From positions 30,763,501 to 30,827,500 of the forward strand of contig OY754465.1 of the NCBI GenBank assembly GCA_963575645.1: a DNA stretch of 64,000 nucleotides, written 5' to 3'. Below are positions 664 to 32,326 of this stretch, one piece after another. Under the pieces are notes generated by a model that searched no databases, had not been told where the DNA came from, and worked only from the letters and a program-made list of their open reading frames with translations. The translations under genes were made by a program, and so were the position numbers. The stretch is from Xanthostigma xanthostigma. Taxonomy: Eukaryota > Arthropoda > Insecta > Raphidioptera > Raphidiidae. Numbering within the stretch: position 1 is the stretch's first letter; each line of letters begins with the position of its first letter.

Positions 664-993
664 CACGACAATTGCGTGCAAATGAGTCCTTATAGGCAAA
701 ATTGCTTTATTTTACAATGGTAAGTCTATTTACACTATAACATTCAGGTTTGGATCATTCTCTCATAAGAAAATGCAAACTGCATATTTACTATCATTTT
801 CACGCAGACAAGCAGTTTTTACATGCTTCACGACAATTGCGTGCAAATGAGTCCTTATAGGCAAAATTGCTTTATTTTACAAAGATAAGTCTATTTACAC
901 TATAACATTCAGGTTTGGATCATTCTCTCATAAGAAAATGCAAACTGCATATTAACCATTATTTTAACGCATACAAGCAGTTTTTACATGCTT
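664..993. repeat. Two type B monomers preceding the 12-monomer unit
   Basis: The monomers at 664 and 829 are both type B. The first carries tttacaatgg and the second tttacaaagataag. The same pair precedes the same downstream block at 32327 and 32492, exactly 31663 bp away, which marks the left edge of a copied segment. Confidence 0.85.
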
Positions 994-6772: not shown

Positions 6773-6940
6773 CACGACAATTGCATGCAATTAATGAGTC
6801 CTTATAGGCAAAATTGCTTTATTTTACAAAGGTAAGTCTATTTTCATTATAACATTCAGGTTTGGATCATTCTCTCATAAGAAAATGCAAACTGCATATT
6901 ATACATTATTTTAACGCATACAAGCAGTTTTTACATGCTT
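6773..6940 (+). repeat. 168-bp type B variant with gcatgcaattaatgag
   Basis: The head reads cacgacaattgcatgc followed by aattaatgag, 3 bp longer than standard type B, and it loses the CGTG arm of the type B dyad. The tail has the tattttcattataac variant. The only other clear copy is at 35792-35959, which helps tie 5782-7270 to 34801-36289 (offset 29019). Confidence 0.87.
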
Positions 6941-9414
6941 TATGACAATTAGGGGCAAATGAGTCCTTATAGGCAAAATTGCTTTATTTCATGAAGGTAA
7001 GTCTATTTACACTATAACATTCAGGTTTGGATCATTCTCTCATAAGAAAATGCAAACTGCACATTAACCATTATTTTAACGCTGACAAGCAGTTTTTACA
7101 TGCTTTATGACAATTAGGGGCAAATGAGTCCCTATAGGCAAAATTGCTTTATTTCATGAAGGTAAGTCTATGTACACTATAACATTTAGGTTTGGATCAT
7201 TCTCTCATAAGAAAATGCAAACTGCATATTAACCATTATTTTAACGCAGACAAGCAGTTTTTACATGCTTCACGACAATTGCGTGCAAATGAGTCCTTAT
7301 AGGCAAAATTGTTTTATTTTACAAAGATAAGTCTATTTACACTATAACATTCAGGTTTGGATCATTCTCTCATAAGAAAATGCAAACTGCATATTAACCA
7401 TTATTTTAACGCATACAAGCAGTTTTTACATGCTTTATGACAATTAGGGGCAAATGAGTACTTATAGGCAAAATTGCTTTATTTCATGAAGGTAAGTCTA
7501 TTTACATTATAACATTAAGGTTTGGATATTTCTCTCATAAGAAAATGCAAACTGCATATTAACCATTATTTAAACGCAGACAAGCAGTTTTTACATGCTT
7601 TACGACAATTAGGTGCAAATGAGTCTTTATAGGCAAAATTGCTTTATTTCATGAGGGTAAGTCTATTTACACTATAACCTTCAGGTTTGGATCATTCTCT
7701 CATAAGAAAATGCAAACTGCATATTTACTATCATTTTCACGCAGACAAGCAGTTTTTATATGCTTCACGACAATTGCGTGCAAATGAGTCCTTATAGGCA
7801 AAATTGCTTTATTTTACAAAGGTAAGTCTATTTACACTATAACATTCAGGTTTGGATCATTCTCTCATAAGAAAATGCAAACTGCATTTTAACCATTATT
7901 TTAACGCATACAAGCAGTTTTTACATGCTTTATGACAATTAGGGGCAAATGAGTCCTTATAGGCAAAATTGCTTTATTTCATGAGGGTAAGTCTATTTTT
8001 ACTATAACATTCAGGTTTGGATCATTCTCTCATAAGAAAATGCAAACTGCATATTAACCATTATTTTAACGCATACAAGCAGTTTTTACATGCTTTATGA
8101 CAATTAGGGGCAAATGGGTCCTTATAGGCAAAATCGCTTTATTTTATGAAGGTTAGTCTATTTACACTATAACATTCAGGTTTGGATTATTCTCTCATAA
8201 GAAAATGCAAACTGCATACTAACCATTATTTTAACGCAGACAAGCAGTTTTTACATGCTTTACGACAATTAGGTGCAAATGAGTCCTTATAGGCAAAATT
8301 GCTTTATTTCACAAAGGTAAGTTTACTTACACTATAACATTCAGGTTTGGATCATTCTCTCACAAGAAAATGCAAACTGCATATTAACTATTATTTTAAC
8401 GCATACAAGCAGTTTTTACATGCTTTATGACAATTAGGGGCAAATGGGTCCTTATAGGCAAAATCGCTTTATTTTATGAAGGTTAGTCTATTTACACTAT
8501 ACCATTCAGGTTTGAAACATTCTCTCATAAGAAAATGCAAACTGCATATTAACCATTATTTTAACGCATACAAGCAGTTTTTACATGCTTTATGACAATT
8601 AGGGGCAAATGGGTCCTTATAGGCAAAATTGCTTTATTTTATGAAGGTAAGTCTATTTACACTATAACATTCAGGTTTGGATTATTCTCTCATAAGAAAA
8701 TGCAAACTGCATATTAACCATTAATTTAACGCAGACAAGTAGTTTTTACATGCTTCACGACAATTGCGTGCAAATGAGTCCTTATAGGCAAAATTGCTTT
8801 ATTTTACAAAGGTAAGTTTACTTAAACTATAACATTCATGTTTAGATCATTCTCTCATAAAAAAATGCAAACTGCATATTAACTATTATTTTAACGCATA
8901 CAAGCAGTTTTTAAATGCTTTATGACAATTAGGTGCAAATGAGTCCTTATAGGCAAAATTGCTTTATTTCATGAGGGTAAGACTATTTATACTATCATTC
9001 AGGTTTGGATCATTCTCTCATAAGAAAATGCAAACTGCATATTTACTATCATTTTAACGCATACAAGCAGTTTTTACATGCTTTATGACAATTAGGTGCA
9101 AATGAGTCTTTATAGGCAAAATTGCTTAATTTTATGAGGGTAAGTCTATTTACACTATAACATTCAGGTTTGGATCATTCTCTCATAAGAAAATGCAAAC
9201 TCAATATTAACCATTATTTTAACGCAGACAAGCAGTTTTTACATGCTTCACGACAATTGCGTGCAAATGAGTCCTTAATTGAAAAATTGCTTTTTTTTTA
9301 GAAAGGTAAGTCTATTTTCACTATAACATTCAGGTTTGGATCATTCTCTCATAAGAAAATGCAACTTGCATATTATACATTATTTTAACGCATACAAGCA
9401 GGTTTTACATGCTT

Positions 9415-9579
9415 TATGATAATTAGGTGCAAATGAGTCTTTATAGGCAAAATTGCTTTATTTTACAAAGGTAAGTCTATTTGCACTATAACATTCAGGT
9501 TTGGATCATTCTCTCATAAGAAAATGCAAACTGCATATTAATCATTATTTTAACGCAGACAAGCAGTTTTTACATGCTT
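9415..9579 (+). repeat. Hybrid monomer at a one-monomer deletion point
   Basis: Upstream text matches the monomer before 17654, while the body matches the monomer at 17819 (tatgataattaggtg). Copy 2 has an additional complete monomer at 17654-17818 (tatgacaattatggg) that copy 1 lacks here. The switch point lies in the shared acatgctttatga around the monomer border. Either copy 1 lost or copy 2 gained one monomer. The missing type is still present in copy 1 at 11227 and 12707. Confidence 0.85.
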
Positions 9580-10240
9580 CACGACAATTGCGTGCAAATG
9601 AGTCCTTATAGGCAAAATTGCTTTATTTTACAAAGGTAAGTCTATTTACACTATATTATTCAAGTTGGGATCATTCTCTCATAAGAAAATGCAAACTGCA
9701 TATTAACCATTATTTTAACGCATACAAGCAGTTTTTACAAGCTTTATGACAATTAGGTGCAAATGAGTCCTTATAGGCAAAATTGCTTTATTTCGAGGGG
9801 GTTAGTCTATTTACACTATAACATTCAGGTTTGGATCATTCTCACATAAGAAAATGCAAACTGCATATTAACCATTATTTTAACGCATACAAGCAGTTTT
9901 TACATGCTTTATGACAATTAGGGGCAAATGGGTCCTCTTAGGCAAAATAGCTTTATTTTATAAAGGTTAGTCTATTTACACTATATCATTCAGGTTTGGA
10001 TTATTCTCTCATAAGAAAATGCAAACTGCATATTAACCATTATTTTAACGCATACAAGCAGTTTTTACATGCTTTATGACAATTAGGTGCAAATGAGTCC
10101 TTATAGGCAAAATTGCTTTTGTTTCACAAAGGTAAGTTTACTTACACTATAACATTCAGGTTTGGATCATTCTCTCACAAGAAAATGCAAACTGCATATT
10201 GACTATTATTTTAACGCATACAAGCAGTTTTTACATGCTT

Positions 10241-11721
10241 TATGACAACTAGGTGCAAATGAGTCCTTATAGGCAAAATTGCTTTATTTCATGAGGGTAA
10301 GACTATTTACACTATCATTCAGGTTTGGGTCATTCTCTCATAAGAAAATGCAAACTGCATATTTACTATCATTTTAACGCATACAAGCAGTTTTTACATG
10401 CTTTATGACAATTAGGTGCAAATGAGTCTTTATAGGCAAAATTGCTTTATTTCATGAGGGTAAGTCTATTTACACTATAACATTCAGGTTTGGATCATTC
10501 TCTCATAAGAAAATGCAAACTGCATATTAACCATTATTTTAACGCAGACAAGCAGTTTTTACATGTTTCACGACAATTGCGTGCAAATGAGTCCTTATAG
10601 GCAAAATTGCTTTTTTTTACAAAGGTAAGTCTATTTTCACTATAACATTCAGGTTTGGATCATTCTCTCATAAGAAAATGCAAACTGCATATTAACCATT
10701 ATTTTAACGCATACAAGCAGTTTTTACATGCTTTATGACAATTAGGTGCAAATGAGTCCTTATAGACAAAATTGCTTTATTTCATGAGGGTAAGACTATT
10801 TACACTATCATTCAGGTTTGGATCATTCTCTCATAAGAAAATGCAAACTGCATATTTACTATCATTTTAACGCATACAAGCAGTTTTTACATGCTTTATG
10901 ACAATTAGGTGCAAATGAGTCTTTATAGGCAAAATTGCTTTATTTCATGAGGGTAAGTCTATTTACACTATAACATTCAGGTTTGGATCATTCTCTCATA
11001 AGAAAATGCAAACTGCATATTAACCATTATTTTAACGCAGACAAGCAGTTTTTACATGCTTCACGACAATTGCGTGCAAATGAGTCCTTATAGGCAAAAT
11101 TGCTTTTTTTTACAAAGGTAAGTCTATTTTCACTATAACATTCAGGTTTGGATCATTCTCTCATAAGAAAATGCAACTTGCATATTATACTTTATTTTAA
11201 TGCATACAAGCAGGTTTTACATGCTTTATGACAATTATGGGCAAATGAGTCCTTATAGGCAAAATTGCATTATTTAATGAGGGTAAGACTATTTACACTA
11301 TAACATTCAGGTTTGGATCATTCTCTCATAGGAAAATGCAAACTGCATATTAACCATTATTTTAACGCAGACAAGCAGTTTTTACATGCTTCACGACAAT
11401 TGCGTGCAAATGAGTCCTTATAGGCAAAATTGCTTTATTTTACAAAGGTAAGTCTATTTGCACTATAACATTCAGGTTTGGATCATTCTGTCATAAGAAA
11501 ATGCAAACTGCATATTAACCATTATTTTAACGCAGACAAGCAGTTTTTACATGCTTCACGACAATTGCGTGCAAATGAGTCCTTAAAGGCAAAATTGCTT
11601 TATTTTACAAAGGTAAGTCTATTTGCACTATAACATTCAGGTTTGGATTATTCTCTCATAAGGAAATGCAAACTGCATATTGACTATTATTTTAACGCAT
11701 ACAAGCAGTTTTTACATGCTT
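10241..11721. repeat. 9-monomer unit (1481 bp), copy 1a
   Basis: Nine monomers start with the rare tatgacaactagg border. They include acatgtttcacg at 10561, a 163-bp monomer, atgcaacttgcat with aatgcatac near 11171-11200, and two copies with ctatttgcac. The unit is repeated immediately at 11722-13201 and is present again in the third segment copy at 24913-26393 (offset 14672). Confidence 0.9.
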
Positions 11722-13201
11722 TATGACAACTAGGTGCAAATGAGTCCTTATAGGCAAAATTGCTTTATTTCATGAGGGTAAGACTATTTACACTATCATT
11801 CAGGTTTGGATCATTCTCTCATAAGAAAATGCAAACTGCATATTTACTATCATTTTAACGCATACAAGCAGTTTTTACATGCTTTATGACAATTAGGTGC
11901 AAATGAGTCTTTATAGGCAAAATTGCTTTATTTCATGAGGGTAAGTCTATTTACACTATAACATTCAGGTTTGGATCATTCTCTCATAAGAAAATGCAAA
12001 CTGCATATTAACCATTATTTTAACGCAGACAAGCAGTTTTTACATGTTTCACGACAATTGCGTGCAAATGAGTCTTTATAGGCAAAATTGCTTTTTTTAC
12101 AAAGGTAAGTCTATTTTCACTATAACATTCAGGTTTGGATTATTCTCTCATAAGAAAATGCAAACTGCATATTAACCATTATTTTAACGCATACAAGCAG
12201 TTTTTACATGCTTTATGACAATTAGGTGCAAATGAGTCCTTATAGACAAAATTGCTTTATTTCATGAGGGTAAGACTATTTACACTATCATTCAGGTTTG
12301 GATCATTCTCTCATAAGAAAATGCAAACTGCATATTTACTATCATTTTAACGCATACAAGCAGTTTTTACATGCTTTATGACAATTAGGTGCAAATGAGT
12401 CTTTATAGGCAAAATTGCTTTATTTCATGAGGGTAAGTCTATTTACACTATAACATTCAGGTTTGGATCATTCTCTCATAAGAAAATGCAAACTGCATAT
12501 TAACCATTATTTTAACGCAGACAAGCAGTTTTTACATGCTTCACGACAATTGCGTGCAAATGAGTCCTTATAGGCAAAATTGCTTTTTTTTACAAAGGTA
12601 AGTCTATTTTCACTATAACATTCAGGTTTGGATCATTCTCTCATAAGAAAATGCAACTTGCATATTATACTTTATTTTAATGCATACAAGCAGGTTTTAC
12701 ATGCTTTATGACAATTATGGGCAAATGAGTCCTTATAGGCAAAATTGCATTATTTAATGAGGGTAAGACTATTTACACTATAACATTCAGGTTTGGATCA
12801 TTCTCTCATAAGAAAATGCAAACTGCATATTAACCATTATTTTAACGCAGACAAGCAGTTTTTACATGCTTCACGACAATTGCGTGCAAATGAGTCCTTA
12901 TAGGCAAAATTGCTTTATTTTACAAAGGTAAGTCTATTTGCACTATAACATTCAGGTTTGGATCATTCTCTCATAAGAAAATGCAAACTGCATATTAACC
13001 ATTATTTTAACGCAGACAAGCAGTTTTTACATGCTTCACGACAATTGCGTGCAAATGAGTCCTTATAGGCAAAATTGCTTTATTTTACAAAGGTAAGTCT
13101 ATTTGCACTATAACATTCAGGTTTGGATTATTCTCTCATAAGGAAATGCAAACTGCATATTTACTATCATTTTAACGCATAAAAGCAGTTTTTACATGCT
13201 T
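11722..13201. repeat. 9-monomer unit, copy 1b
   Basis: This is the tandem repeat of 10241-11721. The offset is 1481 bp, then 1480 bp after one T is lost from the T-run near 12085. The unit recurs at 26394-27708 in segment copy 3 but with eight monomers, because one ctatttgcac monomer is missing there. Segment copy 2 keeps only five related monomers (18645-19467). Confidence 0.9.
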
Positions 13202-14189
13202 TACGACAATTAGGTGTAAATGAGTCTTTATAGGCAAAATTGCTTTATTTCATGAGGGTAAGTCTATTTACACTATAACATTCAGGTTTGATCATTCTCT
13301 CATAAGAAAATGCAAACTGCATATTTACTGTCATTTTCACGCAGACAAGCAGTTTTTACATGCTTCACGACAATTGCGTGCAAATGAGTCCTTATAGGCA
13401 AAATTGCTTTATTTTACAAAGGGAAGTTTATTTACACTATATTATTCAAGTTGGGATCATTCTCTCATAAGAAAATGCAAACTGCATATTAACCATTATT
13501 TTAACGCATACAAGCAGTTTTTACAAGCTTTAAACAATTAGGTGCAAATGAGTCCTTATAGGCAAAATTGCTTTATTTCAAGGGGGTAAATCTATTTACA
13601 CTATAACATTCAGGTTTGGATCATTCTCTCATAAGAAAATGCAAACTGCATATTAACCATTATTTTAACGCATACAAGCAGTTTTTACATGCTTTATGAC
13701 AATCAGGGGCAAATGGGTCCTTATTGGCAAAATTGCTTTATTTTATGAAGGTTAGTCTATTTACACTATATCATTCAGGTTTGGATTATTCTCTCATAAG
13801 AAAATGCAAACTGCATATTAACCATTATTTTAACGCAGACAAGCAGTTTTTACATGCTTCACGACAATTAGGTGCAAATGAGTCCTTATAGGCAAAATTG
13901 CTTTATTTCACAAAGGTTAGTTTACTTACACTATAACATTCAGGTTTGGATCTTTCTCTCACAAGAAAATGCAAACTGCATATTGACTATTATTTTAACG
14001 CATACAAGCAGTTTTTACATGCTTTATGACAATCAGGGGCAAATGAGTCCTTATAGGCAAAATTGCTTTATTTCATGAGGGTAAGTCTATTTACACTATA
14101 ACATTTAGGTTTGGATCATTCTCTCATAAGAAAATGCAAACTGCATATTAACCATTATTTAAACGCAGACAAGCAGTTTTTACATGCTT

Positions 14190-14354
14190 TACGACAATTA
14201 GGTGCAAATGAGTCTTTATAGACAAAATTGCTTTATTTCATGAAGGTAAGTCTATTTACACTATAACATTCAGGTTTGGATCATTCTCTCATAAGAAAAT
14301 GCAAACTGCATATTAACTATTATTTTAACGCATACAAGCAGTTTTTACAAGCTT
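14190..14354 (+). repeat. Example type C monomer (tacgacaattaggtg subtype)
   Basis: Type C starts tacgacaattaggtgc. It usually follows a monomer tail with tatttaaacgcagac or attttaacgcagac, and often reads gagtctttatag instead of gagtccttatag. It combines B-like upstream text (gcagacaag) with A-like downstream text (attagg). It could be an ancestral intermediate or an A/B recombinant; the sequence alone does not decide. Other examples are at 1159, 1654, 2644, 8261, 16500 and 40409. Confidence 0.8.
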
Positions 14355-14849
14355 TATGACAATTAGGTGCAAATGAGTCCTTATAGGCAAAATTGCTTTA
14401 TTTTATGATGGTAAGTCTATTTACACTATAACATTTAGGTTTGGATCATTCTCTCATAAGAAAATGCAAACTGCATTTTAACCATTATTTAAACGCAGAC
14501 AAGCAGTTTTTACATGCTTTACGACAATTAGGGGCAAATGAGTCCTTATAGGCAAATCTGCTTTATTTCATTAAGGTAAGTCTATTTACACTATAACATT
14601 CAGGTTTGGATCATTCTCTCATAAGAAAATGCAAACTGCATATTAACAATCATTTTAACGCTGACAAGTAGTTTTTACATGCTTTACGACAATTAGGTGC
14701 AAATGAGTCCTTATAGGCAAAATTGTTTTATTTCACAAAGGTTAGTCTACTTTCACTATAACATTCAGGTTTGGATCATTTTCTCATAAGAAAATGCAAA
14801 CTGCATATTAACCATTATTTTAACGCAGACAAGCAGTTTTTACATGCTT

Positions 14850-15014
14850 CACGACAATTGCGTGCAAATGAGTCCTTATAGGCAAAATTGCTTTATTTTA
14901 CAAAGGTAAGTCTATTTACACTATAATATTCAGGTTTGGATAATTCTCTCATAAGAAAATGCAAACTGCATATTAACCATTATTTTAACGCATACAAGCA
15001 GTTTTTACATGCTT
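14850..15014 (+). repeat. Example type B monomer (cacgacaattgcgtg subtype)
   Basis: Type B monomers begin with cacgacaattgcgtg, which creates a CACG/CGTG dyad and two extra CpG sites that type A lacks. The preceding monomer carries gcagacaag rather than gcatacaag, and the text downstream is usually tttacaaagg rather than tttcatgagg. These linked variants recur throughout the window (664, 829, 1324, 2479, 7271, 14850, 19138, 38926, 52343, 61354 and others), so B is a stable lineage of monomer. Confidence 0.9.
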
Positions 15015-15179
15015 TATGACAATTAGGGGCAAATGAGTCCTTATAGGCAAAATTGCTTTATTTCATGAGGGTAAGTCTATTTACACTATAACATTCAGGT
15101 TTGGATCATTCTCTCATAAGAAAATGCAAACTGCATATTAACCATTATTTTAACGCATACAAGCAGTTTTTACATGCTT
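15015..15179 (+). repeat. Reference type A monomer (matches consensus)
   Basis: This 165-bp copy matches the consensus I derived by eye and serves as a coordinate frame. Monomer positions: tatgacaatt 1-10, gcaaatgag 15-23, ggcaaaattgc 32-42, tttcatgaggg 47-57, GTAAGT 57-62, GATC 90-93, atgcaaactgcat 110-122, aacgca 138-143, aagca 147-151, tgctt 161-165. Type A is marked by gcatacaag before the border, attaggggc after it, and tttcatgagg or tttcatgaag downstream. It has one CpG, in aacgca. The phase of the monomer is arbitrary. Confidence 0.93.
15124..15179. other. Overlapping inverted repeats in each monomer tail (example)
   Basis: Three dyads overlap here. ATGCA/TGCAT is separated by 3 bases (monomer positions 110-122). 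AAACTGC (114-120) pairs with GCAGTTT (149-155) across 28 bases. AAGCA (147-151) pairs with TGCTT (161-165). All three are conserved in most monomers. By general knowledge, satellites lacking CENP-B boxes are often rich in short dyads, and a role in DNA secondary structure has been proposed. Function here is inference. Confidence 0.7.
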
Positions 15180-17653
15180 TATGACAATTAGGGGCAAATG
15201 AGTCCTTATAGGCAAAATTGCTTTATTTGATGAAGGTAAGTCTATTTACACTATAACATTCAGGTTTGGATCATTCTCTCATAAGAAAATGCAAACTGCA
15301 CATTAACCATTATTTTAACGCTGACAAGCAGTTTTTACATGCTTTATGACAATTAGGGGCAAATGAGTCCCTATAGGCAAAATTGCTTTATTTCATGAAG
15401 GTAAGTCTATGTACACTATAACATTTAGGTTTGGATCATTCTCTCATAAGAAAATGCAAACTGCATATTAACCATTATTTTAACGCAGACAAGCAGTTTT
15501 TACATGCTTCACGACAATTGCGTGCAAATGAGTCCTTATAGGCAAAATTGTTTTATTTTACAAAGATAAGTCTATTTACACTATAACATTCAGGTTTGGA
15601 TCATTCTCTCATAAGAAAATGCAAACTGCATATTAACCATTATTTTAACGCATACAAGCAGTTTTTACATGCTTTATGACAATTAGGGGCAAATGAGTAC
15701 TTATAGGCAAAATTGCTTTATTTCATGAAGGTAAGTCTATTTACATTATAACATTAAGGTTTGGATATTTCTCTCATAAGAAAATGCAAACTGCATATTA
15801 ACCATTATTTAAACGCAGACAAGCAGTTTTTACATGCTTTACGACAATTAGGTGCAAATGAGTCTTTATAGGCAAAATTGCTTTATTTCATGAGGGTAAG
15901 TCTATTTACACTATAACCTTCAGGTTTGGATCATTCTCTCATAAGAAAATGCAAACTGCATATTTACTATCATTTTCACGCAGACAAGCAGTTTTTATAT
16001 GCTTCACGACAATTGCGTGCAAATGAGTCCTTATAGGCAAAATTGCTTTATTTTACAAAGGTAAGTCTATTTACACTATAACATTCAGGTTTGGATCATT
16101 CTCTCATAAGAAAATGCAAACTGCATTTTAACCATTATTTTAACGCATACAAGCAGTTTTTACATGCTTTATGACAATTAGGGGCAAATGAGTCCTTATA
16201 GGCAAAATTGCTTTATTTCATGAGGGTAAGTCTATTTTTACTATAACATTCAGGTTTGGATCATTCTCTCATAAGAAAATGCAAACTGCATATTAACCAT
16301 TATTTTAACGCATACAAGCAGTTTTTACATGCTTTATGACAATTAGGGGCAAATGGGTCCTTATAGGCAAAATCGCTTTATTTTATGAAGGTTAGTCTAT
16401 TTACACTATAACATTCAGGTTTGGATTATTCTCTCATAAGAAAATGCAAACTGCATACTAACCATTATTTTAACGCAGACAAGCAGTTTTTACATGCTTT
16501 ACGACAATTAGGTGCAAATGAGTCCTTATAGGCAAAATTGCTTTATTTCACAAAGGTAAGTTTACTTACACTATAACATTCAGGTTTGGATCATTCTCTC
16601 ACAAGAAAATGCAAACTGCATATTAACTATTATTTTAACGCATACAAGCAGTTTTTACATGCTTTATGACAATTAGGGGCAAATGGGTCCTTATAGGCAA
16701 AATCGCTTTATTTTATGAAGGTTAGTCTATTTACACTATACCATTCAGGTTTGAAACATTCTCTCATAAGAAAATGCAAACTGCATATTAACCATTATTT
16801 TAACGCATACAAGCAGTTTTTACATGCTTTATGACAATTAGGGGCAAATGGGTCCTTATAGGCAAAATTGCTTTATTTTATGAAGGTAAGTCTATTTACA
16901 CTATAACATTCAGGTTTGGATTATTCTCTCATAAGAAAATGCAAACTGCATATTAACCATTAATTTAACGCAGACAAGTAGTTTTTACATGCTTCACGAC
17001 AATTGCGTGCAAATGAGTCCTTATAGGCAAAATTGCTTTATTTTACAAAGGTAAGTTTACTTAAACTATAACATTCATGTTTAGATCATTCTCTCATAAA
17101 AAAATGCAAACTGCATATTAACTATTATTTTAACGCATACAAGCAGTTTTTAAATGCTTTATGACAATTAGGTGCAAATGAGTCCTTATAGGCAAAATTG
17201 CTTTATTTCATGAGGGTAAGACTATTTATACTATCATTCAGGTTTGGATCATTCTCTCATAAGAAAATGCAAACTGCATATTTACTATCATTTTAACGCA
17301 TACAAGCAGTTTTTACATGCTTTATGACAATTAGGTGCAAATGAGTCTTTATAGGCAAAATTGCTTAATTTTATGAGGGTAAGTCTATTTACACTATAAC
17401 ATTCAGGTTTGGATCATTCTCTCATAAGAAAATGCAAACTCAATATTAACCATTATTTTAACGCAGACAAGCAGTTTTTACATGCTTCACGACAATTGCG
17501 TGCAAATGAGTCCTTAATTGAAAAATTGCTTTTTTTTTAGAAAGGTAAGTCTATTTTCACTATAACATTCAGGTTTGGATCATTCTCTCATAAGAAAATG
17601 CAACTTGCATATTATACATTATTTTAACGCATACAAGCAGGTTTTACATGCTT

Positions 17654-17818
17654 TATGACAATTATGGGCAAATGAGTCCTTATAGGCAAAATTGCTTTAT
17701 TTAATGAGGGTAAGACTATTTACACTATAACATTCAGGTTTAGATAATTCTCTCATAAGGAAATGCAAACTGCATATTCACCATCATTTTAACGCATACA
17801 AGCAGTTTTTACATGCTT
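17654..17818 (+). repeat. Whole-monomer insertion relative to copy 1
   Basis: This type A-like monomer (attatgggcaaatgag, tttaatgaggg, aggtttagataattc, attcaccatc) has no counterpart at the same place in copy 1, where 9249 runs into 9415. It changes the copy offset from 8239 to 8404 bp, exactly one monomer. Confidence 0.87.
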
Positions 17819-18644
17819 TATGATAATTAGGTGCAAATGAGTCTTTATAGGCAAAATTGCTTTATTTTACAAAGGTAAGTCTATTTGCACTATAACATTC
17901 AGGTTTGGATCATTCTCTCATAAGAAAATGCAAACTGCATATTAATCATTATTTTAACGCAGACAAGCAGTTTTTACATGCTTCACGACAATTGCGTGCA
18001 AATGAGTCCTTATAGGCAAAATTGCTTTATTTTACAAAGGTAAGTCTATTTACACTATATTATTCAAGTTGGGATCATTCTCTCATAAGAAAATGCAAAC
18101 TGCATATTAACCATTATTTTAACGCATACAAGCAGTTTTTACAAGCTTTATGACAATTAGGTGCAAATGAGTCCTTATAGGCAAAATTGCTTTATTTCGA
18201 GGGGGTTAGTCTATTTACACTATAACATTCAGGTTTGGATCATTCTCACATAAGAAAATGCAAACTGCATATTAACCATTATTTTAACGCATACAAGCAG
18301 TTTTTACATGCTTTATGACAATTAGGGGCAAATGGGTCCTCTTAGGCAAAATAGCTTTATTTTATAAAGGTTAGTCTATTTACACTATATCATTCAGGTT
18401 TGGATTATTCTCTCATAAGAAAATGCAAACTGCATATTAACCATTATTTTAACGCATACAAGCAGTTTTTACATGCTTTATGACAATTAGGTGCAAATTA
18501 GTCCTTATAGGCAAAATTGCTTTTGTTTCACAAAGGTAAGTTTACTTACACTATAACATTCAGGTTTGGATCATTCTCTCACAAGAAAATGCAAACTGCA
18601 TATTGACTATTATTTTAACGCATACAAGCAGTTTTTACATGCTT

Positions 18645-19467
18645 TATGACAACTAGGTGCAAATGAGTCCTTATAGGCAAAATTGCTTTATTTCATGAGG
18701 GTAAGACTATTTACACTATCATTCAGGTTTGGATCATTCTCTCATAAGAAAATGCAAACTGCATATTTACTATCATTTTAACGCATACAAGCAGTTTTTA
18801 CATGCTTTATGACAATTAGGTGCAAATGAGTCTTTATAGGCAAAATTGCTTTATTTCATGAGGGTAAGTCTATTTACACTATAACATTCAGGTTTGGATC
18901 ATTCTCTCATAAGAAAATGCAAACTGCATATTAACCATTATTTTAACGCAGACAAGCAGTTTTTACATGCTTCACGACAATTGCGTGCAAATGAGTCCTT
19001 ATAGGCAAAATTGCTTTATTTTACAAAGGTAAGTCTATTTGCACTATAACATTCAGGTTTGGATCATTCTCTCATAAGAAAATGCAAACTGCATATTAAC
19101 CATTATTTTAACGCAGACAAGCAGTTTTTACATGCTTCACGACAATTGCGTGCAAATGAGTCCTTATAGGCAAAATTGCTTTATTTTACAAAGGTAAGTC
19201 TATTTGCACTATAACATTCAGGTTTGGATCATTCTCTCATAAGAAAATGCAAACTGCATATTAACCATTATTTTAACGCAGACAAGCAGTTTTTACATGC
19301 TTCACGACAATTGCGTGCAAATGAGTCCTTATAGGCAAAATTGCTTTATTTTACAAAGGTAAGTCTATTTGCACTATAACATTCAGGTTTGGATTATTCT
19401 CTCATAAGGAAATGCAAACTGCATATTTACTATCATTTTAACGCATAAAAGCAGTTTTTACATGCTT
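18645..19467. repeat. Contracted form of the 9-monomer unit pair
   Basis: The first two monomers match 10241 and 10404 and the last three are ctatttgcac type B copies matching the end of unit 1b (12872 and 13037, plus one more). The middle monomers with acatgtttcacg and atgcaacttgcat are absent. The deletion joins two points of the same monomer phase. Confidence 0.83.
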
Positions 19468-19830
19468 TACGACAATTAGGTGTAAATGAGTCTTTATAGG
19501 CAAAATTGCTTTATTTCATGAGGGTAAGTCTATTTACACTATAACATTCAGGTTTGATCATTCTCTCATAAGAAAATGCAAACTGCATATTTACTGTCAT
19601 TTTCACGCAGACAAGCAGTTTTTACATGCTTCACGACAATTGCGTGCAAATGAGTCCTTATAGGCAAAATTGCTTTATTTTACAAAGGGAAGTTTATTTA
19701 CACTATATTATTCAAGTTGGGATCATTCTCTCATAAGAAAATGCAAACTGCATATTAACCATTATTTTAACGCATACAAGCAGTTTTTACAAGCTTTAAA
19801 CAATTAGGTGCAAATGAGTCCTTATAGGCA

Positions 19831-21810
19831 AAATTGCTTTATTTCAAGGGGGTAAATCTATTTACACTATAACATTCAGGTTTGGATCATTCTCTCATAA
19901 GAAAATGCAAACTGCATATTAACCATTATTTTAACGCATACAAGCAGTTTTTACATGCTTTATGACAATTAGGGGCAAATGGGTCCTTATTGGCAAAATT
20001 GCTTTATTTTATGAAGGTTAGTCTATTTACACTATATCATTCAGGTTTGGATTATTCTCTCATAAGAAAATGCAAACTGCATATTAACCATTATTTTAAC
20101 GCAGACAAGCAGTTTTTACATGCTTCACGACAATTAGGTGCAAATGAGTCCTTATAGGCAAAATTGCTTTATTTCACAAAGGTTAGTTTACTTACACTAT
20201 AACATTCAGGTTTGGATCTTTCTCTCACAAGAAAATGCAAACTGCATATTGACTATTATTTTAACGCATACAAGCAGTTTTTACATGCTTTATGACAATC
20301 AGGGGCAAATGAGTCCTTATAGGCAAAATTGCTTTATTTCATGAGGGTAAGTCTATTTACACTATAACATTTAGGTTTGGATCATTCTCTCATAAGAAAA
20401 TGCAAACTGCATATTAACCATTATTTAAACGCAGACAAGCAGTTTTTACATGCTTTACGACAATTAGGTGCAAATGAGTCTTTATAGACAAAATTGCTTT
20501 ATTTCATGAAGGTAAGTCTATTTACACTATAACATTCAGTTTTGGATCATTCTCTCATAAGAAAATGCAAACTGCATATTAACTATTATTTTAACGCATA
20601 CAAGCAGTTTTTACAAGCTTTATGACAATTAGGTGCAAATGAGTCCTTATAGGCAAAATTGCTTTATTTTATGATGGTAAGTCTATTTACACTATAACAT
20701 TTAGGTTTGGATCATTCTCTCATAAGAAAATGCAAACTGCATTTTAACCATTATTTAAACGCAGACAAGCAGTTTTTACATGCTTTACGACAATTAGGGG
20801 CAAATGAGTCCTTATAGGCAAATCTGCTTTATTTCATTAAGGTAAGTCTATTTACACTATAACATTCAGGTTTGGATCATTCTCTCATAAGAAAATGCAA
20901 ACTGCATATTAACAATCATTTTAACGCTGACAAGTAGTTTTTACATGCTTTACGACAATTAGGTGCAAATGAGTCCTTATAGGCAAAATTGTTTTATTTC
21001 ACAAAGGTTAGTCTACTTTCACTATAACATTCAGGTTTGGATCATTTTCTCATAAGAAAATGCAAACTGCATATTAACCATTATTTTAACGCAGACAAGC
21101 AGTTTTTACATGCTTCACGACAATTGCGTGCAAATGAGTCCTTATAGGCAAAATTGCTTTATTTTACAAAGGTAAGTCTATTTACACTATAATATTCAGG
21201 TTTGGATAATTCTCTCATAAGAAAATGCAAACTGCATATTAACCATTATTTTAACGCATACAAGCAGTTTTTACATGCTTTATGACAATTAGGGGCAAAT
21301 GAGTCCTTATAGGCAAAATTGCTTTATTTCATGAGGGTAAGTCTATTTACACTATAACATTCAGGTTTGGATCATTCTCTCATAAGAAAATGCAAACTGC
21401 ATATTAACCATTATTTAAACGCAGACAAGCAGTTTTTACATGCTTTATGACAATTTGGGGCAAATGGGTCCTTATAGGCAAAATTGCTTTATTTTATGAA
21501 GGTTAGTCTATTTACACTATAACATTCAGGTTTGGATTATTCTCTCATAAAAAAATGCAAACTGCATATTAACCATTATTTTAACGCATACAAGCAGTTT
21601 TTACATGCTTTATGACAATTAGGGGCAAATGGGTCCTTATAGGCAAAATTGCCTTATTTTATGAAGGTTAGTCTATTTACACTATAACATTCAGGTTTGG
21701 ATCATTCTCTCATAAGAAAATGCAAACTGCATATTAACCATTATTTAAACGCAGACAAGCAGTTTTTACATGCTTTATGACAATTTGGGGCAAATGGGTC
21801 CTTATAGGCA
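19831..21810. repeat. 12-monomer tandem unit in segment copy 2, first
   Basis: The unit runs from tttcaagggggtaaatc at about 19842 to the same motif at about 21822, an offset of 1980 bp. It contains the monomers at 20126 (open frame), 20621 (tttatgatgg), 20786 (ggcaaatctgc) and 20951. The second copy follows directly. Confidence 0.87.
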
Positions 21811-23480
21811 AAATTGCTTTATTTCAAGGGGGTAAATCTATTTACACTATAACATTCAGGTTTGGATCATTCTCTCATAAGAAAATGCAAACTGCATATT
21901 AACCATTATTTTAACGCATACAAGCAGTTTTTACATGCTTTATGACAATTAGGGGCAAATGGGTCCTTATTGGCAAAATTGCTTTATTTTATGAAGGTAA
22001 GTCTATTTACACTATATCATTCAGGTTTGGATTATTCTCTCATAAGAAAATGCAAACTGCATATTAACCATTATTTTAACGCAGACAAGCAGTTTTTACA
22101 TGCTTTACGACAATTAGGTGCAAATGAGTCCTTATAGGCAAAATTGCTTCATTTCACAAAGGTAAGTTTACTTACACTATAACATTCAGGTTTGGATCAT
22201 TCTCTCACAAGAAAATGCAAACTGCATATTGACTATTATTTTAACGCATACAAGCAGTTTTTACATGCTTTATGACAATCAGGGGCAAATGAGTCCTTAT
22301 AGGCAAAATTGCTTTATTTCATGAGGGTTAGTCTATTTACACTATAACATTTAGGTTTGGATCATTCTCTCATAAGAAAATGCAAACTGCATATTAACCA
22401 TTATTTAAACGCAGACAAGCAGTTTTTACATGCTTTACGACAATTAAGGTGCAAATGAGTCTTTATAGACAAAATTGCTTTATTTCATGAAGGTAAGTCT
22501 ATTTACACTATAACATTCAGGTTTGGATCATTCTCTCATAAGAAAATGCAAACTGCATATTAACTATTATTTTAACGCATACAAGCAGTTTTTACAAGCT
22601 TTATGACAATTAGGTGCAAATGAGTCCTTATAGGCAAAATTGCTTTATTTTATGATGGTAAGTCTATTTACACTATAACATTAAGGTTTGGATCATTCTC
22701 TCATAAGAAAATGCAAACTGCATTTTAACCATTATTTAAACGCAGACAAGCAGTTTTTACATGCTTTACGACAATTAGGGGCAAATGAGTCCTTATAGGC
22801 AAATCTGCTTTATTTCATTAAGGTAAGTCTATTTACACTATAACATTCAGGTTTGGATCATTCTCTTATAAGAAAATGCAAACTGCATATTAACAATCAT
22901 TTTAACGCTGACAAGTAGTTTTTACATGCTTTACGACAATTAGGTGCAAATGAGTCCTTATAGGCAAAATTGTTTTATTTCACAAAGGTTAGTCTACTTT
23001 CACTATAACATTCAGGTTTGGATCATTTTCTCATAAGGAAATGCAAACTGCATATTAACCATTATTTTAACGCAGACAAGCAGTTTTTACATGCTTCACG
23101 ACAATTGCGTGCAAATGAGTCCTTATAGGCAAAATTGCTTTATTTTACAAAGGTAAGTCTATTTACACTATAATATTCAGGTTTGGATAATTCTCTCATA
23201 AGAAAATGCAAACTGCATATTAACCATTATTTTAACGCATACAAGCAGTTTTTACATGCTTTATGACAATTAGGGGCAAATGAGTCCTTATAGGCAAAAT
23301 TGCTTTATTTCATGAGGGTAAGTCTATTTACACTATAACATTCAGGTTTGGATCATTCTCTCATAAGAAAATGCAAACTGCATATTAACCATTATTTAAA
23401 CGCAGACAAGCAGTTTTTACATGCTTTATGACAATTTGGGGCAAATGGGTCCTTATAGGCAAAATTGCTTTATTTTATGA
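21811..23480. repeat. 12-monomer tandem unit in segment copy 2, second
   Basis: This repeats 19831 onward at offsets of 1980-1981 bp for about ten monomers, then passes into a caatttgggg monomer and the ttacataaac block. It carries attaaggtgc (one extra base, near 22446) that the first unit lacks. The same pair is at 28073-30053 and 30054-31720 in segment copy 3. Confidence 0.85.
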
Positions 23481-24086
23481 AGGTAAGTCTATTTACACTA
23501 TAACATTCAGGTTTGGATCATTCTCTCATAAGAAAATGCAAACTGCATATTAACCAATATTTTAACGCATACAAGCAGTTTTTACATGCTTTATGACAAT
23601 TAGGGGCAAATGAGTCTATATAGACAAAATTGCTTTATTTTACAAAGGTAAGTTTACATAAACTACAACATTCAGGTTTAGATCATTCTCTCATAAGAAA
23701 ATGCAAACTGCATATTAACTATTATTTTAACGCATACAAGCAGTTTTTACAAGCTTTATGACAATTAGGTGCAAATGAGTCCTTATAGGCAAAATTGCTT
23801 TATTTCATGAGGGTAAGACAGTTTACACTATAACATTCAGGTTTGGATCATTCTTTCCTAAGAAAATGAAAACTGCATATTTACTATCATTTTAACGCAT
23901 ACAAGCAGTTTTTACATGCTTTATGACAATTAGGTGCAAATGAGTCTTTATAGGCAAAATTGCTTTATTTCATGAGGGTAAGTCTATTTACACTATCACA
24001 TTCAAGTTTGGATCATTCTCTCATAAGAAAATGCAAACTGCATATTTACTATCATTTTCACGCAGACAAGCAGTTTTTACATGCTT

Positions 24087-27000
24087 CACGACAATTGCGT
24101 GCAAATGAGTCCTTATAGGCAAAATTGCTTTATTTTACAAAGGTAAGTCTTTTTGCACTATAACATTCAGGTTTGGATCATTCTCTCATAAGAAAATGCA
24201 AACTGCATATTAATCATTATTTTAACGCAGACAAGCAGTTTTTACATGCTTCACGACAATTGCGTGCAAATGAGTCCTTATAGGCAAAATTGCTTTATTT
24301 TACAAAGGTAAGTCTATTTACACTATATTATTCAAGTTGGGATCATTCTCTCATAAGAAAATGCAAACTGCATATTAACCATTATTTTAACGCATACAAG
24401 CAGTTTTTACAAGCTTTATGACAATTAGGTGCAAATGAGTCCTTATAGGCAAAATTGCTTTATTTCGAGGGGGTTAGTCTATTTACACTATAACATTCAG
24501 GTTTGGATCATTCTCACATAAGAAAATGCAAACTGCATATTAACCATTATTTTAACGCATACAAGCAGTTTTTACATGCTTTATGACAATTAGGGGCAAA
24601 TGGGTCCTCTTAGGCAAAATAGCTTTATTTTATAAAGGTTAGTCTATTTACACTATATCATTCAGGTTTGGATTATTCTCTCATAAGAAAATGCAAACTG
24701 CATATTAACCATTATTTTAACGCATACAAGCAGTTTTTACATGCTTTATGACAATTAGGTGCAAATGAGTCCTTATAGGCAAAATTGCTTTTGTTTCACA
24801 AAGGTAAGTTTACTTACACTATAACATTCAGGTTTGGATCATTCTCTCACAAGAAAATGCAAACTGCATATTGACTATTATTTTAACGCATACAAGCAGT
24901 TTTTACATGCTTTATGACAACTAGGTGCAAATGAGTCCTTATAGGCAAAATTGCTTTATTTCATGAGGGTAAGACTATTTACACTATCATTCAGGTTTGG
25001 ATCATTCTCTCATAAGAAAATGCAAACTGCATATTTACTATCATTTTAACGCATACAAGCAGTTTTTACATGCTTTATGACAATTAGGTGCAAATGAGTC
25101 TTTATAGGCAAAATTGCTTTATTTCATGAGGGTAAGTCTATTTACACTATAACATTCAGGTTTGGATCATTCTCTCATAAGAAAATGCAAACTGCATATT
25201 AACCATTATTTTAACGCAGACAAGCAGTTTTTACATGTTTCACGACAATTGCGTGCAAATGAGTCCTTATAGGCAAAATTGCTTTTTTTTACAAAGGTAA
25301 GTCTATTTTCACTATAACATTCAGGTTTGGATCATTCTCTCATAAGAAAATGCAAACTGCATATTAACCATTATTTTAACGCATACAAGCAGTTTTTACA
25401 TGCTTTATGACAATTAGGTGCAAATGAGTCCTTATAGACAAAATTGCTTTATTTCATGAGGGTAAGACTATTTACACTATCATTCAGGTTTGGATCATTC
25501 TCTCATAAGAAAATGCAAACTGCATATTTACTATCATTTTAACGCATACAAGCAGTTTTTACATGCTTTATGACAATTAGGTGCAAATGAGTCTTTATAG
25601 GCAAAATTGCTTTATTTCATGAGGGTAAGTCTATTTACACTATAACATTCAGGTTTGGATCATTCTCTCATAAGAAAATGCAAACTGCATATTAACCATT
25701 ATTTTAACGCAGACAAGCAGTTTTTACATGCTTCACGACAATTGCGTGCAAATGAGTCCTTATAGGCAAAATTGCTTTTTTTTACAAAGGTAAGTCTATT
25801 TTCACTATAACATTCAGGTTTGGATCATTCTCTCATAAGAAAATGCAACTTGCATATTATACTTTATTTTAATGCATACAAGCAGGTTTTACATGCTTTA
25901 TGACAATTATGGGCAAATGAGTCCTTATAGGCAAAATTGCATTATTTAATGAGGGTAAGACTATTTACACTATAACATTCAGGTTTGGATCATTCTCTCA
26001 TAGGAAAATGCAAACTGCATATTAACCATTATTTTAACGCAGACAAGCAGTTTTTACATGCTTCACGACAATTGCGTGCAAATGAGTCCTTATAGGCAAA
26101 ATTGCTTTATTTTACAAAGGTAAGTCTATTTGCACTATAACATTCAGGTTTGGATCATTCTGTCATAAGAAAATGCAAACTGCATATTAACCATTATTTT
26201 AACGCAGACAAGCAGTTTTTACATGCTTCACGACAATTGCGTGCAAATGAGTCCTTAAAGGCAAAATTGCTTTATTTTACAAAGGTAAGTCTATTTGCAC
26301 TATAACATTCAGGTTTGGATTATTCTCTCATAAGGAAATGCAAACTGCATATTGACTATTATTTTAACGCATACAAGCAGTTTTTACATGCTTTATGACA
26401 ACTAGGTGCAAATGAGTCCTTATAGGCAAAATTGCTTTATTTCATGAGGGTAAGACTATTTACACTATCATTCAGGTTTGGATCATTCTCTCATAAGAAA
26501 ATGCAAACTGCATATTTACTATCATTTTAACGCATACAAGCAGTTTTTACATGCTTTATGACAATTAGGTGCAAATGAGTCTTTATAGGCAAAATTGCTT
26601 TATTTCATGAGGGTAAGTCTATTTACACTATAACATTCAGGTTTGGATCATTCTCTCATAAGAAAATGCAAACTGCATATTAACCATTATTTTAACGCAG
26701 ACAAGCAGTTTTTACATGTTTCACGACAATTGCGTGCAAATGAGTCTTTATAGGCAAAATTGCTTTTTTTACAAAGGTAAGTCTATTTTCACTATAACAT
26801 TCAGGTTTGGATTATTCTCTCATAAGAAAATGCAAACTGCATATTAACCATTATTTTAACGCATACAAGCAGTTTTTACATGCTTTATGACAATTAGGTG
26901 CAAATGAGTCCTTATAGACAAAATTGCTTTATTTCATGAGGGTAAGACTATTTACACTATCATTCAGGTTTGGATCATTCTCTCATAAGAAAATGCAAAC

Positions 27001-30000
27001 TGCATATTTACTATCATTTTAACGCATACAAGCAGTTTTTACATGCTTTATGACAATTAGGTGCAAATGAGTCTTTATAGGCAAAATTGCTTTATTTCAT
27101 GAGGGTAAGTCTATTTACACTATAACATTCAGGTTTGGATCATTCTCTCATAAGAAAATGCAAACTGCATATTAACCATTATTTTAACGCAGACAAGCAG
27201 TTTTTACATGCTTCACGACAATTGCGTGCAAATGAGTCCTTATAGGCAAAATTGCTTTTTTTTACAAAGGTAAGTCTATTTTCACTATAACATTCAGGTT
27301 TGGATCATTCTCTCATAAGAAAATGCAACTTGCATATTATACTTTATTTTAATGCATACAAGCAGGTTTTACATGCTTTATGACAATTATGGGCAAATGA
27401 GTCCTTATAGGCAAAATTGCATTATTTAATGAGGGTAAGACTATTTACACTATAACATTCAGGTTTGGATCATTCTCTCATAAGAAAATGCAAACTGCAT
27501 ATTAACCATTATTTTAACGCAGACAAGCAGTTTTTACATGCTTCACGACAATTGCGTGCAAATGAGTCCTTATAGGCAAAATTGCTTTATTTTACAAAGG
27601 TAAGTCTATTTGCACTATAACATTCAGGTTTGGATTATTCTCTCATAAGGAAATGCAAACTGCATATTTACTATCATTTTAACGCATAAAAGCAGTTTTT
27701 ACATGCTTTACGACAATTAGGTGTAAATGAGTCTTTATAGGCAAAATTGCTTTATTTCATGAGGGTAAGTCTATTTACACTATAACATTCAGGTTTGATC
27801 ATTCTCTCATAAGAAAATGCAAACTGCATATTTACTGTCATTTTCACGCAGACAAGCAGTTTTTACATGCTTCACGACAATTGCGTGCAAATGAGTCCTT
27901 ATAGGCAAAATTGCTTTATTTTACAAAGGGAAGTTTATTTACACTATATTATTCAAGTTGGGATCATTCTCTCATAAGAAAATGCAAACTGCATATTAAC
28001 CATTATTTTAACGCATACAAGCAGTTTTTACAAGCTTTAAACAATTAGGTGCAAATGAGTCCTTATAGGCAAAATTGCTTTATTTCAAGGGGGTAAATCT
28101 ATTTACACTATAACATTCAGGTTTGGATCATTCTCTCATAAGAAAATGCAAACTGCATATTAACCATTATTTTAACGCATACAAGCAGTTTTTACATGCT
28201 TTATGACAATTAGGGGCAAATGGGTCCTTATTGGCAAAATTGCTTTATTTTATGAAGGTTAGTCTATTTACACTATATCATTCAGGTTTGGATTATTCTC
28301 TCATAAGAAAATGCAAACTGCATATTAACCATTATTTTAACGCAGACAAGCAGTTTTTACATGCTTCACGACAATTAGGTGCAAATGAGTCCTTATAGGC
28401 AAAATTGCTTTATTTCACAAAGGTTAGTTTACTTACACTATAACATTCAGGTTTGGATCTTTCTCTCACAAGAAAATGCAAACTGCATATTGACTATTAT
28501 TTTAACGCATACAAGCAGTTTTTACATGCTTTATGACAATCAGGGGCAAATGAGTCCTTATAGGCAAAATTGCTTTATTTCATGAGGGTAAGTCTATTTA
28601 CACTATAACATTTAGGTTTGGATCATTCTCTCATAAGAAAATGCAAACTGCATATTAACCATTATTTAAACGCAGACAAGCAGTTTTTACATGCTTTACG
28701 ACAATTAGGTGCAAATGAGTCTTTATAGACAAAATTGCTTTATTTCATGAAGGTAAGTCTATTTACACTATAACATTCAGGTTTGGATCATTCTCTCATA
28801 AGAAAATGCAAACTGCATATTAACTATTATTTTAACGCATACAAGCAGTTTTTACAAGCTTTATGACAATTAGGTGCAAATGAGTCCTTATAGGCAAAAT
28901 TGCTTTATTTTATGATGGTAAGTCTATTTACACTATAACATTTAGGTTTGGATCATTCTCTCATAAGAAAATGCAAACTGCATTTTAACCATTATTTAAA
29001 CGCAGACAAGCAGTTTTTACATGCTTTACGACAATTAGGGGCAAATGAGTCCTTATAGGCAAATCTGCTTTATTTCATTAAGGTAAGTCTATTTACACTA
29101 TAACATTCAGGTTTGGATCATTCTCTCATAAGAAAATGCAAACTGCATATTAAAATCATTTTAACGCTGACAAGTAGTTTTTACATGCTTTACGACAATT
29201 AGGTGCAAATGAGTCCTTATAGGCAAAATTGTTTTATTTCACAAAGGTTAGTCTACTTTCACTATAACATTCAGGTTTGGATCATTTTCTCATAAGAAAA
29301 TGCAAACTGCATATTAACCATTATTTTAACGCAGACAAGCAGTTTTTACATGCTTCACGACAATTGCGTGCAAATGAGTCCTTATAGGCAAAATTGCTTT
29401 ATTTTACAAAGGTAAGTCTATTTACACTATAATATTCAGGTTTGGATAATTCTCTCATAAGAAAATGCAAACTGCATATTAACCATTATTTTAACGCATA
29501 CAAGCAGTTTTTACATGCTTTATGACAATTAGGGGCAAATGAGTCCTTATAGGCAAAATTGCTTTATTTCATGAGGGTAAGTCTATTTACACTATAACAT
29601 TCAGGTTTGGATCATTCTCTCATAAGAAAATGCAAACTGCATATTAACCATTATTTAAACGCAGACAAGCAGTTTTTACATGCTTTATGACAATTTGGGG
29701 CAAATGGGTCCTTATAGGCAAAATTGCTTTATTTTATGAAGGTTAGTCTATTTACACTATAACATTCAGGTTTGGATTATTCTCTCATAAAAAAATGCAA
29801 ACTGCATATTAACCATTATTTTAACGCATACAAGCAGTTTTTACATGCTTTATGACAATTAGGGGCAAATGGGTCCTTATAGGCAAAATTGCTTTATTTT
29901 ATGAAGGTTAGTCTATTTACACTATAACATTCAGGTTTGGATCATTCTCTCATAAGAAAATGCAAACTGCATATTAACCATTATTTAAACGCAGACAAGC

Positions 30001-32326
30001 AGTTTTTACATGCTTTATGACAATTTGGGGCAAATGGGTCCTTATAGGCAAAATTGCTTTATTTCAAGGGGGTAAATCTATTTACACTATAACATTCAGG
30101 TTTGGATCATTCTCTCATAAGAAAATGCAAACTGCATATTAACCATTATTTTAACGCATACAAGCAGTTTTTACATGCTTTATGACAATTAGGGGCAAAT
30201 GGGTCCTTATTGGCAAAATTGCTTTATTTTATGAAGGTAAGTCTATTTACACTATATCATTCAGGTTTGGATTATTCTCTCATAAGAAAATGCAAACTGC
30301 ATATTAACCATTATTTTAACGCAGACAAGCAGTTTTTACATGCTTTACGACAATTAGGTGCAAATGAGTCCTTATAGGCAAAATTGCTTCATTTCACAAA
30401 GGTAAGTTTACTTACACTATAACATTCAGGTTTGGATCATTCTCTCACAAGAAAATGCAAACTGCATATTGACTATTATTTTAACGCATACAAGCAGTTT
30501 TTACATGCTTTATGACAATCAGGGGCAAATGAGTCCTTATAGGCAAAATTGCTTTATTTCATGAGGGTAAGTCTATTTACACTATAACATTTAGGTTTGG
30601 ATCATTCTCTCATAAGAAAATGCAAACTGCATATTAACCATTATTTAAACGCAGACAAGCAGTTTTTACATGCTTTACGACAATTAAGGTGCAAATGAGT
30701 CTTTATAGACAAAATTGCTTTATTTCATGAAGGTAAGTCTATTTACACTATAACATTCAGGTTTGGATCATTCTCTCATAAGAAAATGCAAACTGCATAT
30801 TAACTATTATTTTAACGCATACAAGCAGTTTTTACAAGCTTTATGACAATTAGGTGCAAATGAGTCCTTATAGGCAAAATTGCTTTATTTTATGATGGTA
30901 AGTCTATTTACACTATAACATTAAGGTTTGGATCATTCTCTCATAAGAAAATGCAAACTGCATTTTAACCATTATTTAAACGCAGACAAGCAGTTTTTAC
31001 ATGCTTTACGACAATTAGGGGCAAATGAGTCCTTATAGGCAAATCTGCTTTATTTCATTAAGGTAAGTCTATTTACACTATAACATTCAGGTTTGGATCA
31101 TTCTCTCATAAGAAAATGCAAACTGCATATTAACAATCATTTTAACGCTGACAAGTAGTTTTTACATGCTTTACGACAATTAGGTGCAAATGAGTCCTTA
31201 TAGGCAAAATTGTTTTATTTCACAAAGGTTAGTCTACTTTCACTATAACATTCAGGTTTGGATCATTTTCTCATAAGGAAATGCAAACTGCATATTAACC
31301 ATTATTTTAACGCAGACAAGCAGTTTTTACATGCTTCACGACAATTGCGTGCAAATGAGTCCTTATAGGCAAAATTGCTTTATTTTACAAAGGTAAGTCT
31401 ATTTACACTATAATATTCAGGTTTGGATAATTCTCTCATAAGAAAATGCAAACTGCATATTAACCATTATTTTAACGCATACAAGCAGTTTTTACATGCT
31501 TTATGACAATTAGGGGCAAATGAGTCCTTATAGGCAAAATTGCTTTATTTCATGAGGGTAAGTCTATTTACACTATAACATTCAGGTTTGGATCATTCTC
31601 TCATAAGAAAATGCAAACTGCATATTAACCATTATTTAAACGCAGACAAGCAGTTTTTACATGCTTTATGACAATTTGGGGCAAATGGGTCCTTATAGGC
31701 AAAATTGCTTTATTTTATGAAGGTAAGTCTATTTACACTATAACATTCAGGTTTGGATCATTCTCTCATAAGAAAATGCAAACTGCATATTAACCAATAT
31801 TTTAACGCATACAAGCAGTTTTTACATGCTTTATGACAATTAGGGGCAAATGAGTCTATATAGACAAAATTGCTTTATTTTACAAAGGTAAGTTTACATA
31901 AACTACAACATTCAGGTTTAGATCATTCTCTCATAAGAAAATGCAAACTGCATATTAACTATTATTTTAACGCATACAAGCAGTTTTTACAAGCTTTATG
32001 ACAATTAGGTGCAAATGAGTCCTTATAGGCAAAATTGCTTTATTTCATGAGGGTAAGACAGTTTACACTATAACATTCAGGTTTGGATCATTCTTTCCTA
32101 AGAAAATGAAAACTGCATATTTACTATCATTTTAACGCATACAAGCAGTTTTTACATGCTTTATGACAATTAGGTGCAAATGAGTCTTTATAGGCAAAAT
32201 TGCTTTATTTCATGAGGGTAAGTCTATTTACACTATCACATTCAAGTTTGGATCATTCTCTCATAAGAAAATGCAAACTGCATATTTACTATCATTTTCA
32301 CGCAGACAAGCAGTTTTTACATGCTT
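24087..32326. repeat. 50-monomer segment, copy 3 (8240 bp)
   Basis: Fifty monomers. From about 24135 the text matches copy 1 from 9463 (offset 14672), so the left 15 monomers of copies 1 and 2 are absent. It keeps both 9-monomer units (24913-26393 and 26394-27708, the latter one monomer short), then both 12-monomer units as in copy 2. Copy 3 therefore shares its left half with copy 1 and its right half with copy 2. It ends at the same monomer type where copy 2 ends and passes into a block homologous to 664-2973. Confidence 0.88.
29027..29190 (+). repeat. 164-bp variant monomer (one base lost)
   Basis: The tail reads attaaaatcatttt where its relatives at 14520, 20786, 22767 and 31007 read attaacaatcatttt. 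This single-base loss changes the copy 2 to copy 3 offset from 8241 to 8240. Confidence 0.8.

Follow-up and report, generated by a model that had tools for sequence, protein, structure and literature searches.

The 64,000-nt window that we analyzed (C2:30763501-30827500) lies within a 69.3-Mb contig. The genome totals 623 Mb and has 28 contigs, of which numbers 1-13 measure 18-84 Mb each and number 14 is 24 kb. The entire window (1..64000, + strand) is an uninterrupted satellite array of 387 head-to-tail monomers on one strand, and the array extends past both edges of the window. No monomers on the opposite strand were found within these 64 kb. The monomer is 165 bp long and AT-rich (31% GC), and the mean identity of the 387 monomers is 91.9% over all pairs and 91.4% between neighbors.

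No long reading frames were found in the window: the three open reading frames of at least 60 amino acids are all of 68 amino acids, with one in each copy of the block that we will call S. An Rfam scan of the window gave 0 matches at the gathering thresholds. A 28-base monomer pattern had no exact match in the genome_contigs or viral_contigs collections, 1 kb of the array had no match in the plasmid or phage collections, and six monomer fragments did not occur in the literature text searched. Four monomers of 217 bp (43706-43922, 54320-54536, 58825-59041, and 61516-61732) contain an internal 52-bp tandem duplication, which marks related units. Also, 93-94 of the 387 monomers form a variant family, in which alignment columns 3, 13, and 14 depart together from the consensus; the two commonest linked haplotypes of this type account for 81 monomers.

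Using an ungapped block search of the window, we identified duplicated blocks in three adjoining segments, which we compared as copy 1 (6904-15142), copy 2 (15143-24112), and copy 3 (24113-32352). A sequence-only reading had described these as three near-identical copies with borders at 15180 and 24087. The near identity holds for the blocks that the segments have in common (~99.9% identical over 1.7-3.5 kb), and, as that reading had said, neighboring monomers are far more different (91.4%). The segments are not full copies of one unit, however: end-to-end alignments give 96.3-98.0% identity when gap columns are ignored. The block order is P-Q-R-S in copy 1, P-q-Q-S-U in copy 2 (where q is a single monomer), and Q-R-S-U in copy 3. 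Block P is missing from copy 3, a net 13 monomers of R are missing from copy 2, and copy 1 stops before U. The borders between segments also fall elsewhere, at 15143-15151 and 24113-24141.

All of the features that follow are on the + strand. In copy 1, block P (6904..9402) matches block P of copy 2 (15143..17641) with 1 mismatch (1 in 2516 for the pair). Just ahead of block Q (9403..10711), monomer q has been lost; it is kept in upstream paralogs. Block R (10712..12775) lies inside two 9-monomer units with an offset of 1480. Block S (12776..15142) has 2 mismatches to 19042-21408 (2 in 2375 for the pair) and ends at the S to P junction (15143..15151), which has an 8-nt ambiguity and keeps the monomer register. 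In copy 2, block P is followed by monomer q (17642..17806), which this copy alone of the three retains, and then by block Q (17807..19041), which ends at the loss of R; the net 13 absent monomers fall around 18913-19042. Blocks S and U of copy 2 (19042..24112) follow, and U contains a 12-monomer repeat with an offset of 1981. The U to Q junction (24113..24141) has a 28-nt ambiguity and again keeps the monomer register. In copy 3, blocks Q and R (24113..27447) have 2 mismatches to 9441-12775 (2 in 3335), and blocks S and U (27448..32352) have a left edge that is one monomer short of copies 1 and 2, as well as one lost base. Beyond copy 3 lies an older duplicated flank (32314..37456) that resembles 651-8272 with rearrangements.

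For the remaining pairs, S of copy 3 differs from S of copy 1 or copy 2 by 1 mismatch in 1706, and the two U blocks differ by 3 in 3227. Q of copy 2 is more divergent (5/1309 versus copy 1 and 4/1232 versus copy 3), largely because of three changes that adjoin its R loss. The longest block in the window is 3484 bp, as compared to a maximum of 606 bp over ten shuffles of monomer order. The window contains 25 blocks of at least 1 kb, and all six of those with 0.1% divergence or less are within 6904-32380; the next youngest has 0.289% divergence.

Both difference counts of the sequence-only reading were exact. It had reported about one difference between 6941-9414 and 15180-17653, and there is 1 in 2474 positions; it had reported about five differences between 19303-24120 and 27544-32360, and there are 4 substitutions and one 1-bp indel. 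It had also recognized in copy 3 the two 9-monomer units of copy 1 (the offset of 1480 is present in both copies) and the 12-monomer units of copy 2 (offset 1981, the same stretch in copy 3). But copy 3 does not begin like the left end of copy 1, because the 2.5-kb block P is absent; its start matches 9441 onward, which is inside copy 1. Copies 1 and 3 have nearly the same length (8239 and 8240 bp), yet their block content differs.

We propose that this array, which is probably centromeric, recently grew by two staggered tandem duplications, and we consider this likely. The ancestral stretch would have been L-P-q-Q-R-S-U-F, with P to U (~11.1 kb) in single copy. One duplication, of P-S (8404 bp), would have created the S to P junction, and the other, of Q-U (8406 bp), would have created the U to Q junction; the two could have occurred in either order, and each step would comprise 51 monomers. 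Later, q would have been lost from copy 1, a net 13 monomers of R from copy 2, and one base from copy 3. The similar sizes of copies 1 and 3, which might be taken for equal content, would each be a duplication step minus one monomer, made of different blocks. The sequence-only reading had proposed that copy 3 is either a recombinant of the other two or their parent; neither is needed, as two staggered duplications of equal length and the later changes give the mosaic.

Compared with the 25,449 bp observed, this model has 11 mismatches and needs five gaps. Every gap is sequence that the real copies do not have: copy 1 has one of 165 bp, copy 2 has two (823 and 1315 bp), and copy 3 has two (165 bp and 1 bp). 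Because copy 1, part of copy 3, and the q that copy 2 retains went into building the model, 11,108 bp match by construction, and the remaining 14,341 of 25,449 bp are the test. The flanks support the model: copy 1 retains the older left flank, which runs into it, and copy 3 retains the older right flank, which runs out of it. Some findings count against it. The R loss takes two gaps (823 and 1315 bp), and an upstream stretch at -7442..-5963 has 1 mismatch in 1480 to part of P (7244-8723). This stretch is as close to P as the copies are to each other, which implies further recent exchange beyond the model. Also, an upstream paralog has a single 9-monomer unit and, by painting, no extra monomers at the R/S border, which shows that the number of monomers varies locally in ways that the model does not include.

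Upstream paralogs allowed us to polarize the later changes. The best other match to monomer q in the window has 7 mismatches, while upstream of the window there is an identical copy at -13829 and a copy with 1 mismatch at -4627. Since q is present in upstream paralogs, copy 1 lost it; we considered a gain of q in copy 2 and rejected it because of the identical q upstream. Divergence is 0.29% for the 9-monomer duplication in R, versus 0.03-0.09% between copies. The duplication is therefore older than the copies, which means that copy 2 lost it and that copies 1 and 3 did not gain it. Since a 291-bp tract at the R loss is repeated in tandem, an alternative reading is a bigger deletion together with the duplication of one monomer.

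An identical monomer tract occurs twice in copy 1 (at 12808), three times in copy 2 (at 18909), and once in copy 3 (at 27484). These copy numbers at the R/S border suggest single-monomer slippage. Copy 3 is one monomer short of copies 1 and 2 at this border, and the upstream paralog seems to hold fewer. As the monomer lies within both duplicated spans, the two steps would be equal whichever state is older, at 51 or 50 monomers each.

The paralogs provided an outgroup base at 11 of the 12 substitution sites (all except 21653) and at the 1-bp indel, which was a loss in copy 3. Copy 1 has two derived changes. Copy 2 has five, plus 21653 by consensus and three at the R-loss junction. The only one in copy 3 is at 24151, which is ten bases away from the left junction of this copy. 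Leaving out the three changes at the R-loss junction, copy 2 has 6 of the 9 private substitutions, which is not a significant excess (P = 0.055). These 9 substitutions over 25.4 kb correspond to 3.5e-4 per site per copy, in agreement with the earlier claim of a very recent, large-scale amplification. If the mutation rate is assumed to lie between 3e-9 and 1e-8 per site per generation, values that are not from this species, the age would be about 35,000 to 120,000 generations.

No derived change is common to two copies. This supports the staggered duplications, and it also implies that copy 3 did not arise by recombination between copies 1 and 2 once these had mutated. A gene-conversion or crossover origin of copy 3 has some appeal, as only 6 mismatches in 8201 bp separate this copy from a painting that uses copy 1 over 24113-29153 and copy 2 over 29154-32313. 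But wherever copy 1 or copy 2 is derived at a site that copy 3 covers, copy 3 shows the outgroup base, so none of their testable private changes are present in it. (This test omits 21653, which has no outgroup base, and 15229, which is in P and is absent from copy 3.) Copy 3 also runs on into the older right flank. We consider a recombinant origin to be the least probable of the alternatives. An artefact of assembly, in which the assembler repeated one or two real copies or strung two haplotypes together, is scarcely more probable. Identity of 99.9% over kilobases does fall in the allelic range, but the copies bear private substitutions and private structural changes, and with just 8 and 28 identical bases at the joints, an overlap-based assembler would be unlikely to join them without a molecule that crosses. 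Assembly duplication thus seems unlikely, and we take the copy number as assembled.

A further alternative fares better, though we still think that it is improbable: there could have been three complete P-Q-R-S-U copies, with P then lost in copy 3, R in copy 2, and U in copy 1. Every block is indeed present in at least two of the three copies. However, P would have to be lost exactly at the border of copies 2 and 3 and U exactly at the border of copies 1 and 2, which amounts to two deletions that erase copy borders, whereas staggered duplication yields both borders without any deletion.

How might the two staggered duplications have come about? Both junctions preserve the phase of the monomers. 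In gapped alignments, the parents of the junctions are identical at 303/333 and 298/332 positions, so the joined monomers are ~90% alike, and the identical runs at the joints are 8 and 28 bases. Out-of-register exchange, or restart behind a fork, is described as producing tandem duplications (PMC8997354, PMC12321929). Here, sister chromatids offset by that number of monomers could have undergone out-of-register exchange or break-induced replication. The outcome is the same tandem duplication as in models of unequal exchange or break-induced replication, and these models are not new; in this case, single steps are legible base by base. Identity of ~90% with runs of 8 and 28 bases is less than a classical crossover would prefer, and this counts against the model. 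That both steps have the same shift suggests one of two things: the second duplication followed the pairing that the first had set up, or a single repair episode slipped back on two occasions by an equal distance. The short joint runs and the equal shift would favor a restart through strand invasion, the first step serving as a guide for the second, and this is the reading to which we lean. That a replication or repair fork slipped back twice in the same register during one repair episode, using homology as short as 8 and 28 bases, strikes us as rather unlikely. If it were true, short-homology restarts with a preferred step would drive array growth, and not exchanges that involve long tracts of identity. 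A preferred length near 8 kb is also hinted at by further young blocks in the neighborhood, which are offset by 46-49 monomers.

The surrounding array holds many other duplications. In 264 kb around the window, we found 270 blocks of at least 1.2 kb, including 22 with 0.1% divergence or less. Six of these young blocks are inside the region, 2 link part of P to -7442..-5963, and 14 are elsewhere, so that 16 of the 22 are wholly or partly outside 6904-32352. One of the young blocks elsewhere is 8260 bp long, with 5 mismatches and an offset of 49 monomers, and those at 108-123 kb have offsets of 46-47 monomers. Downstream of the window, a larger young duplication (68135-87010 and 92367-110252) has offsets near 24 kb and three blocks at ~0.05%. 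Within the window, further duplications at ~0.3% divergence link 57420-60159 to 60111-62850 and 39427-41534 to 45748-47855. There is also an older layer (0.23-1.4%) that links 651-8309 and 10122-11563 to 32314-39427 with rearrangements; its shift was roughly 104 monomers prior to the recent duplications. The region is typical of the array, and what it records is ordinary satellite turnover, well resolved.

To locate the satellite in the genome, we used two pieces of the array as queries and scored 40 candidates for each. The satellite is found in a single interior zone per contig on at least 11 of the 13 chromosome-sized contigs (C1 to C11). C12 and C13 had no match among the scored candidates (40 per search), and satellite there may have been missed. 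Among the matches listed, those on C2 span 29.6 to 31.5 Mb; samples from C2 at 29.3 and 31.7 Mb were satellite too, in the opposite orientation. A 500-bp sample within the C1 zone was not satellite. One localized zone per chromosome, common to most chromosomes, is what is expected of a centromeric satellite. Given this location, rather than CENP-A binding, the array is most likely the centromere. Elsewhere on C2, at 24.27 Mb (C2:24265701-24267000), there is a reading frame for a diverged, CENP-A-like histone H3. Its best matches among solved structures are H3/CENP-A chimeras (95 bits), with ordinary H3 close behind (88-89 bits).

We compared this array to known satellites. Using the CENP-B box motif, we found 0 matches in the window at 0 or 1 mismatch; at 2 mismatches there were 41, versus 29.8 expected, and 2 of 100 shuffles were as high. 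Like primate alpha satellite as described (~171 bp), the array has head-to-tail monomers, multimonomer units that are more alike than neighbors, and young layers over older ones. Unlike alpha satellite, it lacks the CENP-B box at those thresholds and its units are irregular, without one fixed unit; the likeness is one of organization. Its multimonomer units are far above neighbor identity (~99.9% vs. 91.4%), as in higher-order repeats, but no regular unit is repeated many times in the window: duplications vary in length, with offsets of 9, 12, 13, 16, 38, and ~50 monomers among others, and are mostly in two or three copies. Unlike the host of the poplar satellite Palv156, this genome has 0 matches to PF00504 (the chlorophyll-binding family) and 111 to PF00379 (the cuticle family). 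These counts suggest an arthropod genome, probably that of an insect. The monomers of Palv156 are described as arranged in higher-order repeats, with similarity that drops with distance (PMC12046899). The likeness to such plant centromere satellites is again one of organization. CentO of Oryza punctata also has a 165-bp monomer, going by the title of its report, and this likeness is one of length. The literature on human centromeres describes unequal crossing over and saltatory amplification, as well as many structural changes (PMC11062924).

Segmental self-copying is the usual growth mode of such arrays, so the phenomenon is expected and this is an unusually clean case. In what is probably an insect centromere array, the region records two steps of expansion and several changes that came later, at base resolution, and upstream paralogs polarize nearly all of the substitutions. 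The same array holds other events of comparable age. That diverged monomers were joined with their register kept is relevant to the debated question of unequal exchange versus break-induced replication.
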